Assembly: GCA_040757115.1 (NCBI GenBank)
Contig: JBFLYA010000138.1
Coordinates: 1 to 9,741 of the forward strand
Length of the DNA: 9,741 nt
Direction: 5' to 3'
DNA from: a bacterium
GTDB lineage: Bacteria; UBA9089; CG2-30-40-21; SBAY01
The notes under the pieces are model-generated. The model saw only the letters and a list, made by a program, of their open reading frames with translations, searched no databases and was not told the DNA's origin. Of this stretch, positions 3,234 through 9,062 are shown piece by piece. Numbering within the stretch: the first letter of the stretch is position 1; each line of letters opens with the position of its first letter. The translations under genes and the position numbers were made by a program.

Positions 3234-3241
3234 GCGGCGGC
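3234..3241. repeat. 8-bp target duplication, left copy
   Basis: GCGGCGGC directly before the element is identical to 3601-3608 directly after it. The second copy lies in the last codons of the methyltransferase/ligase gene, so this one is a displaced duplicate of that coding sequence. Confidence 0.8.
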
Positions 3242-3283
3242 ATAATGGGTTAGTCATTTGGGGGTAATGTGTAATAAAACATT

Positions 3284-3332
3284 AGACAACCCCCTAACCC
3301 CCTTTGTTAAGGGGGAATTTTGGGGGGTGTCT
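3284..3332. repeat. Nested C/G-tract palindrome
   Basis: There are two stems, one inside the other. The outer stem pairs AGACA (3284-3288) plus CCCCC (3290-3294) with a G run plus TGTCT (3322-3332). The inner stem pairs CCCCCTT (3298-3304) with AAGGGGG (3309-3315) around a TGTT loop. Similar CCCCCTAACCCCC-type nested palindromes occur as dispersed intergenic repeats in cyanobacteria and other bacteria, so this may be a second repeat lodged within the element. Confidence 0.7.
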
Positions 3333-3367
3333 GAAAATAACGCTAATAGTGAAATCTATCCAGATTT

Positions 3368-3487
3368 GTGTAAAAAAGGGGATAAGGAGATAAAAGGAGA
3401 TATGGAGATTATTCATTGTAATTTGCAAAATTTTAGAATGAATTTATCTCCTTATCTCCATAATCCCCATATCTCCTTTTCTTACAC
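3368..3487. repeat. Long imperfect inverted repeat made of GGAGATA-type units
   Basis: The left arm (3368-3417), from GTGTAAAAAAGGGG to TTCATT, is matched in inverted order by 3436-3487, ending CTTACAC. Both arms are built of short purine units such as GGAGATA and GGGGATA with small gaps between arms. A transcript in either direction could fold into a long hairpin. Confidence 0.75.
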
Positions 3488-3596
3488 TATTTCAACCTTT
3501 ATGCTAGATTAAGACACCACCGAATTTTGCCTACAAACCTGCAGTTCTGCTCATCCTCCAAATCTCTAATCTCTAGTTCTCCATTTCACTAACCCA

Positions 3597-5570
3597 TTAC
3601 GCGGCGGCACGAATGAGTGTTTCTTCTTTTTTTCCATTAGTCATTTGAAGTCCCAATCGTTGTTCTGTGGCTCGGATGATCGTTCCAATCATCTCACTGT
3701 AAGATATTCCTTCAATCTTTGCCATTTTTGCCAGGTGTCCATCCCAGCACCAACCTGGGTTAGGATTTACCTCAAGCAATTTAGGATTACCATCTGAATC
3801 AACCCTCCAATCAAATCGGCAATAATCCCTGCACTCCAGGCGCTCATATAACTTTAAACAACATTCCACAATGGATTTTTTTGTCTCCTCTGGCAACTGG
3901 GCAGGAATGGATTTGATAACCCAATATGGCGAGTCTGGAAGCCATTTTGCTTCATAGCCGCATATTTTAGGCAGTCCTTGTGGAAGTGCTGAGTAATCCT
4001 CCTCGATAATGGGTAAGATTGTATAAAATTCTGGTGGATTTCCTATTATCCCTACACTCAAGTCTTTTCCTGTCAGGAATTCTTCAACAAGAATAGGTTT
4101 GTCATACCCAAATTTCTCACGGATTTCTGAAATAGCGTTTACCAGTTCCTCAATATTATTTGCCACACTCCGCTGTGTTATACCAAAACTGGAGTCCCCA
4201 AAGTTGGGTTTTGTAATTACCGGGAATTCAAAAGGAATCTCAAAAGTGGTATCTTCTGGTTTGATAAAGAAAGCCTCTGGAACTGGAATCTCCATCTCTT
4301 TTGCAATTCCACGCACAAGTGATTTATCATAGCAGTAAGCAAGACATTGTGGGCCGGCGCCTGTATATGGAATATCAAGCATTTCCATCAAAGAAGGGAT
4401 ATGAAGTTCTTTTCTCGGGTCGTTAGCATATCCTTCATCACACAAATTAAAAACAAAATCTATTTGAGGTTTTAGTTTTACCAACTCCTGATACAAGGTA
4501 TCGTGGTTATTAAGTGGTATAAACCGATAACCATGAAGTTCTCTTAAGGCATCTTTTAATTGGTCAATTGTATAGAAATCATCGTCATCAAAGATGCACA
4601 TTGGTTTTAATGGGTCGGGTTTTGACGGGTCACCTAAAATTACGGCTATATTTCTTAGTGATTCTTTTGGTTTTTTCTTAATGGGTGTCCATTCTTTTCT
4701 AACTATAGAGCTGACGAGGATGCGTCGTTCCATCATACCGAGGTCTTGATTTCGATGGGAATCCGTTATTATTTCTCCATGAAAGGCAATATTCGTAAAT
4801 CCTGCGGATTTGAGAAGTTCTTCCATACTTTCTCGGGTGTAAAGTCTTTCTGCATAAAATTGGTCTGTAATCACACCCTTTTCGACATGAGTTACTACCT
4901 CTCGTGAGATTAGACGCTGTTTATCTTTTGAAAGCGAACGCTCTCGACAAACAAAATGCTTTTTGTCTATCCATTCCCATGACCTTGGTTGAAATTGTTT
5001 TTTTAAATATTTTCCATCTGCCACATCGATAAGGATTCGTCCCCAGGGTTTCAGGACTCTAAAGATTTCCTTGAGCACCTGCAAATCATCCTGAATTGTT
5101 TCAAAATAGCCGAAGCTGTTACCCAGAATTACCACCACATCGAATGTATCGGGTGAAAATGGGATTTTTCTGGCATCGCCTTCTTTAAATCTGATATTCA
5201 AGCCTTCTTTTTTTGCTTGTGTTTTTGCCTTTTGAATGAGGTAATAGGAGCGGTCTAAGGCATCAATATCGGTTATACCACGGCTGGCTAATTCAAAGGT
5301 GTGTCGTCCCTGTCCGCAACATAAATCTAAAATTCTATCTTCTGGCGACAGTCTCAGGATTTTTGAAAATAAATCAACCTCCTTCGCGGTCAAGTTTTCA
5401 TCCTCAACTACATCCGCATCTGTTTTTAAATAAATTGAGTTGAATATCCGTCGCCACCAATCCGGCTGAACATACTCCTCCAAATTGTGCAAAGGACCAA
5501 ATGTCCTTTTACATCCTAATGTTACCTTTTCTTTACGAAATGGTTTGACATTAGATACTTTTATTTTCAT
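3597..5570 (-). CDS. Fused SAM-dependent methyltransferase / D-Ala-D-Ala-ligase-like ATP-grasp protein
   Basis: This is a 657-residue cytoplasmic two-domain protein. Residues about 50-290 are a class I methyltransferase: motif I ILDLCCGQGRHT (80-91), the acidic strand end at D106, GDARKIPF (131-138) and DVVVILGNSFGYF (144-156). Residues about 305-640 are an ATP-grasp ligase of the D-Ala-D-Ala ligase type: FNLCDEG (374-380), PYTGAGP (401-407), ATP-binding KPNFGDSSFGIT (454-465), YEAKW (539-543) and metal ligands D587, E600 and N602 in LLEVNPNPG. An ungapped alignment from memory to E. coli DdlB across the C-terminal part gives S281 to G611 and Y216 to W543, and the DdlB E15 region is not recognisable. 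ATP and metal binding look intact but the D-alanine sites do not, so it probably joins another acid and amine. It leads the leftward glycosyltransferase cluster. Its TAA stop (3599-3597) lies in the inserted element. Confidence 0.86.
   Translation of the reverse strand: MKIKVSNVKPFRKEKVTLGCKRTFGPLHNLEEYVQPDWWRRIFNSIYLKTDADVVEDENLTAKEVDLFSKILRLSPEDRILDLCCGQGRHTFELASRGITDIDALDRSYYLIQKAKTQAKKEGLNIRFKEGDARKIPFSPDTFDVVVILGNSFGYFETIQDDLQVLKEIFRVLKPWGRILIDVADGKYLKKQFQPRSWEWIDKKHFVCRERSLSKDKQRLISREVVTHVEKGVITDQFYAERLYTRESMEELLKSAGFTNIAFHGEIITDSHRNQDLGMMERRILVSSIVRKEWTPIKKKPKESLRNIAVILGDPSKPDPLKPMCIFDDDDFYTIDQLKDALRELHGYRFIPLNNHDTLYQELVKLKPQIDFVFNLCDEGYANDPRKELHIPSLMEMLDIPYTGAGPQCLAYCYDKSLVRGIAKEMEIPVPEAFFIKPEDTTFEIPFEFPVITKPNFGDSSFGITQRSVANNIEELVNAISEIREKFGYDKPILVEEFLTGKDLSVGIIGNPPEFYTILPIIEEDYSALPQGLPKICGYEAKWLPDSPYWVIKSIPAQLPEETKKSIVECCLKLYERLECRDYCRFDWRVDSDGNPKLLEVNPNPGWCWDGHLAKMAKIEGISYSEMIGTIIRATEQRLGLQMTNGKKEETLIRAAA
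3601..3608. repeat. 8-bp target duplication, right copy
   Basis: GCGGCGGC, identical to 3234-3241. On the minus strand it encodes the last alanines of the methyltransferase/ligase (GCC GCC GC followed by G of the element). Confidence 0.8.
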
Positions 5571-5576
5571 TTTATT

Positions 5577-5593
5577 CCCCCCCCCAAAAAAAA
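5577..5593 (-). promoter_or_regulatory. T8-G9 homopolymer acting as ribosome-binding region
   Basis: On the minus strand, eight T (5593-5586) run into nine G (5585-5577), ending six bases before the ATG at 5570. The G run is the only Shine-Dalgarno-like sequence available. Homopolymers of this length slip easily, so the strength of the site could vary between cells. Confidence 0.5.
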
Positions 5594-5603
5594 GTTTAGG
5601 ATA

Positions 5604-5632
5604 ATAATATCATTTTTTGGATAATTTTGCAA
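5604..5632 (-). promoter_or_regulatory. Promoter for the methyltransferase/ligase gene
   Basis: Minus-strand TTGCAA (5632-5627; 4/6) and TATTAT (5609-5604; 5/6) are 17 bases apart. The start would fall near 5597, giving a short leader that contains the T8-G9 run. Confidence 0.55.
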
Positions 5633-5633
5633 C

Positions 5634-5662
5634 AAAAATTTTAATAAAAAAATAAAATTTTT
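5634..5662. promoter_or_regulatory. A-tract inverted repeat between divergent promoters (UP element or operator)
   Basis: AAAAATTTTA (5634-5643) and TAAAATTTTT (5653-5662) are perfect inverted copies around a 9-base A/T centre. The arms sit just upstream of the leftward -35 (5627-5632) and the rightward -35 (5673-5678), the position expected for RNA polymerase UP elements. A binding site for a regulator or an A-tract binding protein is the alternative. Confidence 0.5.
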
Positions 5663-5672
5663 GGTTATCCAC

Positions 5673-5701
5673 TTGACAAAAAAAAGATATTATGATATAA
5701 T
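5673..5701 (+). promoter_or_regulatory. Perfect-consensus sigma70-type promoter for the rho unit
   Basis: TTGACA (5673-5678) and TATAAT (5696-5701) are separated by 17 bases, matching the consensus at all 12 positions. The start should be near 5708, leaving a leader of about 150 bases before the first gene. Confidence 0.8.
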
Positions 5702-5707
5702 TTTAAT

Positions 5708-5857
5708 TAATGGAAAGTATGACCAACCCAAAAATCTTTCCCAATTAAAATCAATTTTTCCATAAAGTGCTTCTCTAATTCTTTTTAAATATCCTGAGGA
5801 ATAAAAAGATTACCCTGTTATTTAAGGATGGACACTAAATTTTGGGAGAAATAATAT
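5708..5857 (+). promoter_or_regulatory. Long, G-poor 5' leader of the rho transcript
   Basis: This roughly 150-base leader lies between the predicted transcription start and the first gene. Its first part (about 5718-5800) is rich in A, C and U with few G, the composition Rho prefers for loading. ATGGAAA (5710-5716) can pair with TTTCCAT (about 5756-5762). Rho is known to control its own leader in E. coli, so feedback is plausible here, but no defined attenuator or T-tract terminator is visible. GGGAG at 5844-5848 is the ribosome site for the ATG at 5858. Confidence 0.4.
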
Positions 5858-6529
5858 ATGCCCACCAGGGAACAAGGCATAAAAAAAGACCGTGGAACAA
5901 AAATTGACATCTTGAGTTTTTTTTATAAATATCCAATAAAAAACTTACCTGTGGTAGATAAAAATAAATGTATTATTGGAATTCTGGTAAAAGAGAGTTT
6001 AATTGCATCATCTACGGTCACTTCAAATTTGACCACACCACTGACAAAAGTCATTTCAGACCATCTTGTCCCGGTGATATTAGAAAAAGATTATCAAATC
6101 TTACAAGGGTTACTTCAAAACTTTAAAAAAGTTACGACTATCCCGGTTATTGATGTTAAAGGTAGGGTGGTTGATTGGTGGAATAGATTTGATTTAATCT
6201 GTGCCTGGGAAGGATACCCGGACTTAGCTACCCAGCACTTTGAAACAATTTTCGCTAATTTCCCTTATCCTGTGGTGATTGTTGATAATAAATTAAAAAT
6301 AACTTATATGAATTTAGCCGGTATCAATCTGACAATCACCGGTCGGGGAAGAAAAGTAATCGGAAAATCTTTGAATGAAATCTTTCCTGTGGTGAAGGAT
6401 ATTAGTGATTCTTCTATTATCGATGAACGGATACTCATAGAAGGAGAAGAATTTAGATATGATAGTGTGCCTATTAAGAAAGAAGAAACAATAGTAGGTG
6501 CCATATATTTTTTAAGGAGGAAAATATAG
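5858..6529 (+). CDS. CBS-PAS domain protein coupled to rho
   Basis: This 223-residue soluble protein has no signal or membrane segment. Residues about 17-118 look like a pair of CBS modules, with [20 protein letters not shown] (28-47) and [20 protein letters not shown] (93-112). The first module seems short at its N-terminus. Residues about 127-222 look like a PAS domain: [19 protein letters not shown] (128-146), then ITYMN (148-152) and [11 protein letters not shown] (167-177). CBS modules commonly bind adenine nucleotides and PAS domains bind small ligands or mediate contacts, so a sensor or adaptor is likely. There is no enzymatic or DNA-binding output domain. Upstream in-frame TAA at 5852 limits the start to 5858 or later; GGGAG sits nine bases before it. 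Its stop TAG overlaps the GTG start of rho by one base, which suggests both proteins are made together. Confidence 0.75.
6514..6520 (+). promoter_or_regulatory. Strong ribosome binding site of rho
   Basis: AAGGAGG, eight bases before the GTG at 6529, is a full Shine-Dalgarno match lying in the last codons of the CBS-PAS gene. It decides the GTG start of rho. Confidence 0.85.
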
Positions 6530-7791
6530 TGGAAGGACAACTTAACTTATCAGATTTACAAGCAATGAGCATTTCAAAACTAAGCGACTTAACCCATCAA
6601 TTAAAGATAGAAGGGGTTAGTGGGATGAAAAAGCAGGAGCTTATTTTTGCCATTTTACAGGCTCAAGCGGCAGAAAAAGGGCTTTTGTTTGGAGAAGGAG
6701 TATTAGAGATATTACCTGATGGATATGGTTTTTTGAGGTCACCAAAATATAATTATCTTCCTTCACCAGATGATATTTATATTTCACCTTCTCAGATAAG
6801 AAAATTTAGTTTAAAAACCGGGGATACGGTTTCTGGACAAATAAGGCCACCAAAAGAAAATGAGAAATTCTTTGCCCTTTTAAAGGTAGAGGCAGTCAAT
6901 TTCGATGACCCTGACAGGGCGGCTGATAGGATATTGTTTGATAATCTTACCCCATTATACCCGGATAAAAGAATTCATTTAGAGCGAGAATCAAAAGAGG
7001 TCTCAATGCGCATTATGGATTTACTTACCCCTATTGGCAAAGGACAACGAGGATTAATTGTCGCACCGCCACGCACCGGGAAAACAGTATTATTACAAAA
7101 ACTGGCTAATTCAATTACGACTAACCATCCGGAAATTAAATTAATCGTTTTGCTTATCGACGAACGACCTGAGGAAGTTACAGATATGGAAAGGTCAGTT
7201 AAGGGTGAGGTGATAAGTTCGACATTTGACGAGCCAGCGAGTAGGCATGTTCAAGTCGCGGAAATGGTGATTGAAAAGGCAAAAAGATTAGTCGAACATA
7301 AATATGATGTTGTCATCTTGCTGGATAGTATCACGCGATTAGCCAGGGCTCATAATCAGGTAGTTCCTGCCTCTGGAAAGGTGCTTTCTGGTGGTGTTGA
7401 TTCAAATGCCCTACATCGGCCAAAACGATTCTTTGGTGCGGCACGAAATATCGAAGAAGGCGGAAGTTTAACCATTCTTGCTACGGCTTTAATTGATACA
7501 GGAAGTAGAATGGATGAGGTTATTTTTGAGGAATTTAAGGGAACGGGGAATATGGAGGTCCTTTTAGACCGCAGTTTAGTTGACCGTAGATTATTCCCTT
7601 CTATCAATATTTCCAAATCAGGAACCCGCCGAGAAGAGTTACTTTTAGAAGAAGACGACTTGAATAAGGTCTGGCTACTGCGTAAAGCCATTACCCCATT
7701 GAATCCAGTAGAAAGTATGGAATTAATCGTTGAAAAAATGCACTCCACACAAAATAATAAGGAGTTCTTAATGGCTATAAACAGGGGATAA
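6529..7791 (+). CDS. rho: Transcription termination factor Rho
   Basis: This 420-residue protein is the usual length for Rho, the hexameric RNA-dependent ATPase that ends transcription. In order: Rho N-terminal helical domain (about 8-50); cold-shock-like RNA-binding domain with GVLEIL (57-62) and DGYGFLR (64-70); ATPase core with Walker A APPRTGKT (179-186), [13 protein letters not shown] (208-220) and Walker B VVILLDS (261-267). The Q-loop region [20 protein letters not shown] (279-298) is followed by [15 protein letters not shown] and [19 protein letters not shown]. All catalytic and secondary RNA-binding landmarks are intact, with no inserted domain in the N-terminal half. It starts with GTG overlapping the stop of the CBS-PAS gene. 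The downstream 8-bp duplication and element begin eight bases after its stop. Confidence 0.98.
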
Positions 7792-7798
7792 CAATGAA

Positions 7799-7806
7799 GA
7801 GTAAAC
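7799..7806. repeat. 8-bp target duplication, left copy
   Basis: GAGTAAAC just before the element is identical to 8009-8016 just after it. It lies a few bases after the rho stop codon, so no coding sequence was hit. Confidence 0.85.
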
Positions 7807-8008
7807 GTAATGGGTCAGTTATTTGGGGGAAACGAACATTAACCTGTGGAGGACAAAGCAATGAAAACAGTAGGCAAGTAGGTAGTAGGTAAGTAGGAAA
7901 GGGATAAAGGATGTGCACGGTATTCCTCTTCTGGGGGCAATGTCTCCCCCTTTCCTACTCTCCTACTTCCTACTTTCAGGAGAATCCCCCATTTCACTGA
8001 CCCATTAC
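7807..8008. mobile_element. MITE-like non-autonomous element, copy 2 (202 bp)
   Basis: The ends GTAATGGGTCAGT (7807-7819) and ACTGACCCATTAC (7996-8008) are perfect 13-bp inverted repeats. Extended to 23 bases, 20 match (left continues TATTTGGGGG; right reads GAAATGGGGG inward). Perfect 8-bp duplications flank it. The interior is one imperfect hairpin: GTAGG/AAGTAGG units at 7870-7903 are opposed by CCTAC/TTCCTAC units at 7948-7977. In the loop, GGGGG (7933-7937) can also pair with CCCCC (7946-7950). There is no gene inside. Apart from its ends it shares no sequence with the copy at 3242-3600 beyond the same kind of purine/pyrimidine repeat design. It separates rho from the diadenylate cyclase gene and may change read-through between them. 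Confidence 0.86.
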
Positions 8009-8016
8009 GAGTAAAC
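8009..8016. repeat. 8-bp target duplication, right copy
   Basis: GAGTAAAC, identical to 7799-7806. Confidence 0.85.
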
Positions 8017-8838: not shown

Positions 8839-8932
8839 ATACATTTAAGTAAATAGTTACTGCAGGAGAAACGGACATGCCCCTGTAGGGCACAAATGAC
8901 GATGAAAATTAATGGGACAGAGATTGGAGTCA

Positions 8933-8982
8933 TTAGTCAATGGTCATTAGTCAATGACCATTGACCAATGACCATTGACCAA
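8933..8982. repeat. 24-bp near-perfect palindrome of TCAATGG-type units
   Basis: The left arm 8933-8956 is inverted at 8959-8982 with 22 of 24 positions matching and only two bases between the arms. Each arm itself repeats GTCAATG and GTCATT. It would fold into a cruciform or strong RNA hairpin; no T tract follows, so a simple terminator is not indicated. Confidence 0.85.
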
Positions 8983-9011
8983 AAGGAGATAGGCGTAAGG
9001 AGTGATGTTTT

Positions 9012-9062
9012 CTTTACTTTCTACTTTCTACTTTCTACTCTCTACTTTCTACTTCCTATTTT
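9012..9062 (+). repeat. Heptamer tandem array TTTCTAC
   Basis: About seven head-to-tail 7-base units, mostly TTTCTAC with variants CTTTAC, TCTCTAC and TTCCTAT, end at the ribosome binding site of the following gene. The array contains no A/G-rich complement nearby except the CCTAC-type units in the element at 7807-8008. Confidence 0.85.

Follow-up and report, generated by a model that had tools for sequence, protein, structure and literature searches.

The window analysed here is one entire contig (C138) of 9,741 nucleotides, part of a 4.3-Mb genome that is spread across 462 contigs. It contains a 657-aa methyltransferase/ATP-grasp reading frame, neighboring cdaA-like and YbbR-like genes and two conspicuous repeats, here called copy 1 and copy 2. 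Both repeats are small transposons without coding content, with outer sizes of 152 bp (copy 1) and 202 bp (copy 2), inverted ends and no transposase gene. A further hairpin module lies in the gap between the cdaA-like and YbbR-like genes (Table 1). The sister referred to throughout is a species of the same genus, with approximately 97.5% identity in the region compared.

Table 1. Repeat features of the window (positions 5' to 3'; a point marks features without strand)
Feature	Position	Strand	Basis or remark
Copy 1, left target duplication GCGGCGGC	3234..3241	.	sequence; identical 8 bp in sister
Copy 1, outer TAATGGGTTAGT element	3242..3600	+	359 bp as found; 152 bp minus nested insert and its duplication
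Nested MITE, left duplication GAATTTTG	3315..3322	.	only one GAATTTTG in sister
Nested family-B MITE GGGGGTGTCT...AGACACCACC	3323..3521	+	20+ dispersed copies; orthologous sister site without insert
Nested MITE, imperfect hairpin	3378..3480	+	arms ~3378-3412 and 3443-3480; z -5.6 vs shuffles
Nested MITE, right duplication GAATTTTG	3522..3529	.	alignment; sister comparison
Copy 1, right target duplication GCGGCGGC	3601..3608	.	sequence
Copy 2, left target duplication GAGTAAAC	7799..7806	.	sequence; duplication survey
Copy 2, 202-bp AAGTAGG-family MITE	7807..8008	+	~20 full-length relatives, 86-97% identical
Degenerate linker beneath copy 2 left end	7821..7870	+	model R1, 29.4 bits, E 6e-5
Copy 2, hairpin cassette, ATGAAAAC to TTTCAGGAGAA	7861..7984	+	cassette boundaries, clustering, folding
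Copy 2, right target duplication GAGTAAAC	8009..8016	.	sequence; duplication survey
Full linker CAGGAGAAACGGACATGCCC-loop-GGGCACAAATGACGATGAAAAT	8860..8911	+	model R1, 66.2 bits; between cdaA-like and YbbR-like genes (Pfam)
Hairpin cassette	8912..9058	+	sister: two different cassettes at corresponding place
Closing motif TTTTCAGGAGAA	9059..9070	+	AGGAG within it: likely ribosome-binding site for gene start 9076

All four outer ends are exact copies of TAATGGGTYAGT, which a scan of the window finds four times in exact form. With up to two mismatches it occurs nine times in the window against 1.9 expected, a count that none of 200 shuffles reached, and the terminal 13 bp of the ends recur many times across the genome. 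Beyond the ends, YATTTGG stands on one side and GAAATGG on the other, an asymmetry that also recurs genome-wide. The initial annotation had described GTAATGGGTYAGT ends with this asymmetry and perfect 8-bp duplications, and these are real and exact at both copies. Among 29 copies of the copy 2 family from this genome and the sister, an exact 8-bp duplication was found in 15, at least one other copy (L063) having been bounded wrongly by the script although its duplication is exact on direct reading; 21 of the 29 have at most one mismatch, and the flanks further out differ by a mean of 4.9 mismatches. Similar ends are carried by two distant genomes of the genome collection, from which the source genome's own record is excluded. 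In a Verrucomicrobia genome (L096, 5133-5311), GTAATGGGTCAGTTATTTGGGGG faces GTAATGGACCAGTTATTGGG at a distance of approximately 180 bp, without a matching duplication. Two loci (L122, 2891-3047; L123, 2540-2696) hold 157-bp elements with the ends GTAATCC(C/T)TCAG and GTAATCGGTCAG, an 8-bp duplication CTCAGCCG in each and a CGCAAAG-type hairpin.

The GGAGATA hairpin of copy 1 belongs to a separate 199-bp MITE that has its own ends and its own 8-bp duplication. When copy 1 was used as the query, at least 20 genomic places matched its positions 73-288 alone. The aligned relatives define a 199-200-bp element, family B, with the ends GGTGGTGTCT/AGACACCACC and mostly AT-rich duplications of 8 bp, exact in nine of the 15 copies measured. 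This element is present 20 or more times without TAATGGGT ends, with a common interior within the family. In the sister, the outer element at the orthologous site is likewise flanked by the GCGGCGGC duplication, contains a single GAATTTTG and lacks the nested insert. It is this empty site that establishes the nesting and, together with the independent copies, assigns the GGAGATA hairpin to another transposon. The proposal that the two interiors are alternatives within one family therefore fails, since the hairpin of copy 1 is that of a nested foreign MITE. The insertion of copy 1 predates the split from the sister, and the unrelated MITE now sits inside it in this genome. The remaining 152 bp of copy 1 share with copy 2 only about 23 bp at each end. 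One relative of this outer element, with 91% identity over nearly the full length, was found elsewhere in the sister, so that a common interior is weakly indicated by a single relative. As a separate observation, the right end of copy 1 (window 3597-3608) provides ORF 3597-5570, the methyltransferase/ATP-grasp frame, with its stop codon (TAA within GTAATGGG), and the final residues of the protein are encoded by the target duplication of copy 1.

For copy 2, the AAGTAGG interior is common to approximately 20 full-length copies in this genome. One common interior among other copies had been set beforehand as the test that would refute exchangeable interiors, and it was found. Nesting and one ordinary MITE family account for the reported pair. 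Copy 2 is short, lacks a transposase gene, and combines inverted ends with an 8-bp duplication and, like family B, a common interior, as expected of a MITE. Both interiors had been described as hairpin-forming, and both indeed fold much better than shuffles (z -5.6 for copy 1, -4.6 for copy 2). Lengths within the copy 2 family vary mostly by whole units of 7-8 bp in the pyrimidine arm; these variants bear out the suggested expansion by slippage. The sister has no copy 2 in the gap after rho, where a different, GGTAATTGGTAACT-type repeat is located instead. Several copies of a 209-bp MITE (L068, L069, L070, L071) also share their flanks, on the left for at least 70 bp, with a CATATATG duplication, and three of them share 88 bp on the right; the shared flanks indicate that this MITE is part of a larger repeat, and that the larger repeat has been copied as well.

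Exchange of cargo, which does not account for the reported pair, is supported genome-wide. Elements with ends of the copy 2 type contain other hairpins (L004/L145, L003, L143, L148), and these alternative hairpins are again bounded by ATGAAAA and TTTCAGGAGAA. Conversely, the AAGTAGG hairpin is also found between different ends, GTAACTATTCAG. These mark a second MITE family with AAGTAGG hairpins (L155, L154 and L156, with two in tandem at L155). A chimera (L130) joins a left end GTAACTATTCAG to a right end CACTGACGCATTAC of the copy 2 kind. Finally, a MITE insertion that both species share, flanks included, contains one cassette in this genome (C40) and two in the sister (C59), the extra unit having TTTCAGGAGAA both at its start and at its end.

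Cassettes of this kind are separated by a linker of 52 nt, TTTCAGGRGAAACGBTCATG-stem-CACAAANGANGATGAAAAT. A covariance model built from 15 examples (R1) recovers 150 or more linkers both in this genome and in the sister; these counts are lower bounds, since 150 was the number scored per species. Each of 17 further genomes from the phylum contains 0-2. Across 80 distinct sequences, 95.7% of the cells in the stem are paired. Both sides have changed in 81 cells, compared with 31 in shuffles, and none of 500 shuffles scored as high; the alignment used was fitted to the structure, and the first alignment, built without structure, agrees. A fixed-length linker pattern matched a single site, the loop length varying among linkers, and a coding role of the linker was set aside by eye, since differences in loop length put the copies in different reading frames. 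Searches of Rfam with eight sources gave no match at the gathering score, three sources yielding chance-level matches alone. In the viral collection, neither the 5' half of the linker nor the MITE end was found, and three matches to the 3' half (18-23 bits) are taken as chance. Single linkers occur in other genera of the phylum (L221 and L226 in genome G002, L223 in G005, L222 and L227 in G008), and at L223 and L226 a short cassette comes next and closes with TTTTCAGGGGAAA. The linker-cassette unit may predate its expansion.

The cassettes themselves are diverse. The loci sampled yielded 99 distinct cassettes, which the chosen thresholds group into 20 clusters, and most cluster representatives pair ATGAAAA with TTTTCA at the base of the hairpin. 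The representatives of 12 of the 20 clusters fold better than shuffles at z < -2, whereas the other eight do not clearly exceed shuffles; the idea that interiors are selected only for their ability to fold is thus borne out in part. The arrays run head-to-tail, and adjacent cassettes are usually unrelated. A given cassette class turns up at many loci, where it is freely combined with other classes between constant linkers. Because the region beneath its left end matches the linker model weakly (E 6e-5), copy 2 reads as transposon ends around one linker-cassette unit.

Arrays share the coding strand with the downstream gene and are often found immediately before it, with its ribosome-binding site as the last motif of the array. 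A gene start lies at ribosome-binding distance after 22 of the 41 array ends that lead to neither another linker nor a MITE end, compared with 238 of 4000 random positions (6%) and 213 of 1293 AGGAG sites (16%) at the same loci. Array content also changes between the two species. At one gene, a single unit in this genome (C123) corresponds to six in the sister (C110), and the cdaA-like/YbbR-like gap in the window holds one cassette to which both sister cassettes are unrelated. With two species compared, such differences in unit number may be gains or losses.

With regard to mobilization, the ends of IS66 elements begin with GTAAGCG and produce 8-bp repeats (PMC11946415). The ends studied here share the GTAA start and the 8-bp duplication with IS66-family insertion sequences and MITEs (PMC11946415), and continue as GTAATGG where the published ends read GTAAGCG. 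A full-length insertion sequence with the same ends, which the initial annotation had proposed to look for, did not emerge: unlike in IS66 elements, no transposase was found between GTAATGGGTCAGT ends in this genome or in nine relatives. Inverted GTAA-NNNN-TCAG/TCAC ends (GTAANNNNTCAG/C class) enclose four IS66-type transposase loci (PF03050; L091, L159, L160, L161), found in this genome and in three others of the phylum. No exact 8-bp duplication was found at any IS66-type locus with GTAA ends. Since none of the PF03050 loci has GTAATGGGTCAGT and none shows an exact duplication, the GTAATGGGTCAGT ends are probably IS66-like at the level of the class only.

The closest known kind of repeat is represented by the BOX elements of Streptococcus pneumoniae and S. 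suis, the likeness being one of architecture (PMC3049150). BOX elements are composite MITE-like repeats in which end modules flank a variable number of inner modules. Their number varies among strains at one site, and in S. suis two end sets flank the same inner boxB module (PMC3049150). The elements described here likewise place ends around a variable number of inner modules. The elements here differ from BOX elements in several respects. Their inner modules, each preceded by a constant 52-nt linker, fall into approximately 20 mostly unrelated clusters; arrays can also lack transposon ends and frequently close with the ribosome-binding site of the gene downstream; and the outer ends have clear 8-bp duplications. 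By analogy, the cassette system appears to work like BOX elements, although its inner modules are much more diverse and it is tied to gene leaders; the literature on heptamer repeats and non-coding cassette arrays held nothing closer. Short palindromes in intergenic mosaic arrays are also typical of REP/REPIN/BIME repeats with their Y1 (RAYT) transposases (PMC3116915, PMC2817692), but the units here all point in one direction. Y1 transposases (PF01797) occur in genomes both with and without arrays and are therefore uninformative as a mover, and no linker was found beside the seven Y1 loci tested in this genome and the sister. Integron arrays consist of unrelated units placed head-to-tail with a constant folding segment between them, as do the cassette arrays here; in contrast to integron cassettes, no genes were recognised in the units read.

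Taken together, we favor, with a probability of roughly 0.7, a reading in which IS66-type miniature transposons coexist with a separate modular system of hairpin cassettes, which some of the transposons have incorporated. The GTAATGGGTYAGT elements would be moved in trans by an IS66-type cut-and-paste DDE transposase that needs the ends alone, as the end class and the duplications suggest, and copy 2 would have the same kind of ends surrounding one linker-cassette unit. Units of the form [TTTCAGGRGAA...CATG-stem-CACAAANGANGATGAAAAT][cassette] build the head-to-tail arrays of this genus, and the two-species comparison shows that it is at the TTTCAGGRGAA motif that entire units are added or removed. 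A unit could be lost simply if the 11-bp repeats recombine or slip against each other. New cassette types would have to be supplied by a donor copy, probably by recombination within the linkers or hairpin bases that units share, or else by a putative recombinase. Arrays on the coding strand that end in a ribosome-binding site could persist as a 5' leader at little cost, and may tune the expression of the downstream gene. It is possible, if rather unlikely, that the cassettes form a dedicated integron-like mobile system, in which a putative recombinase would insert hairpin units singly at TTTCAGGRGAA in leaders, re-creating the ribosome-binding site and sparing the gene, while some arrays hitch-hike inside IS66-type MITEs.

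We hold it doubtful that the arrays are instead a non-mobile, selected RNA device, namely structured 5' leader modules that control translation and were tandemly duplicated. The covarying linker stem, the conserved strand and the ribosome-binding site at the array end would fit such a device, whereas the change from one to six units at one gene between close relatives, the wholly different array contents at another gene, the lack of conservation of the cassettes and the presence of linkers inside MITEs speak against it. It is improbable that only ordinary MITE families are involved, with one interior per end type, apparent exchange resulting from nesting and decay, and arrays from tandem duplication. 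The nesting of copy 1, the common interiors of the copy 2 and nested families and the outer copy 1 relative with the same interior agree with this account, but the AAGTAGG hairpin occurs in two different kinds of ends and in one chimera, and array neighbors are usually unrelated; the difference of one unit within a single fixed insertion (C40/C59) weakens it further. An origin of the hairpin interiors in situ, by slippage and quasi-palindrome repair without exchange, is very unlikely: arm lengths do change mostly by whole 7-8 bp units and short-unit repeats make up many interiors, yet the recurrence of cassette classes at many loci, freely mixed between constant linkers, largely contradicts slippage as the main process and leaves it able to adjust lengths. 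That short-read contigs of an uncultured genome were wrongly joined via repeats is hardly credible, since, despite 462 contigs and many repeats, another assembly shows the same modules with orthologous flanks and the window copies lie within a single contig with matching duplications.

On the favored reading of transposons and a separate cassette system, cassette exchange explains how unrelated insides arise within one family of transposon ends. Short hairpin modules number in the hundreds in this genome and are swapped into and out of repeats and gene leaders, which is unusual. The two species provide a natural experiment on change in modular non-coding repeats, with unit boundaries resolved to an 11-bp motif. 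Provided that insertion at a ribosome-binding site leaves the site intact, units would have a cheap way to spread through gene leaders, and each insertion would reset the structure of the leader, here in the diadenylate cyclase region.
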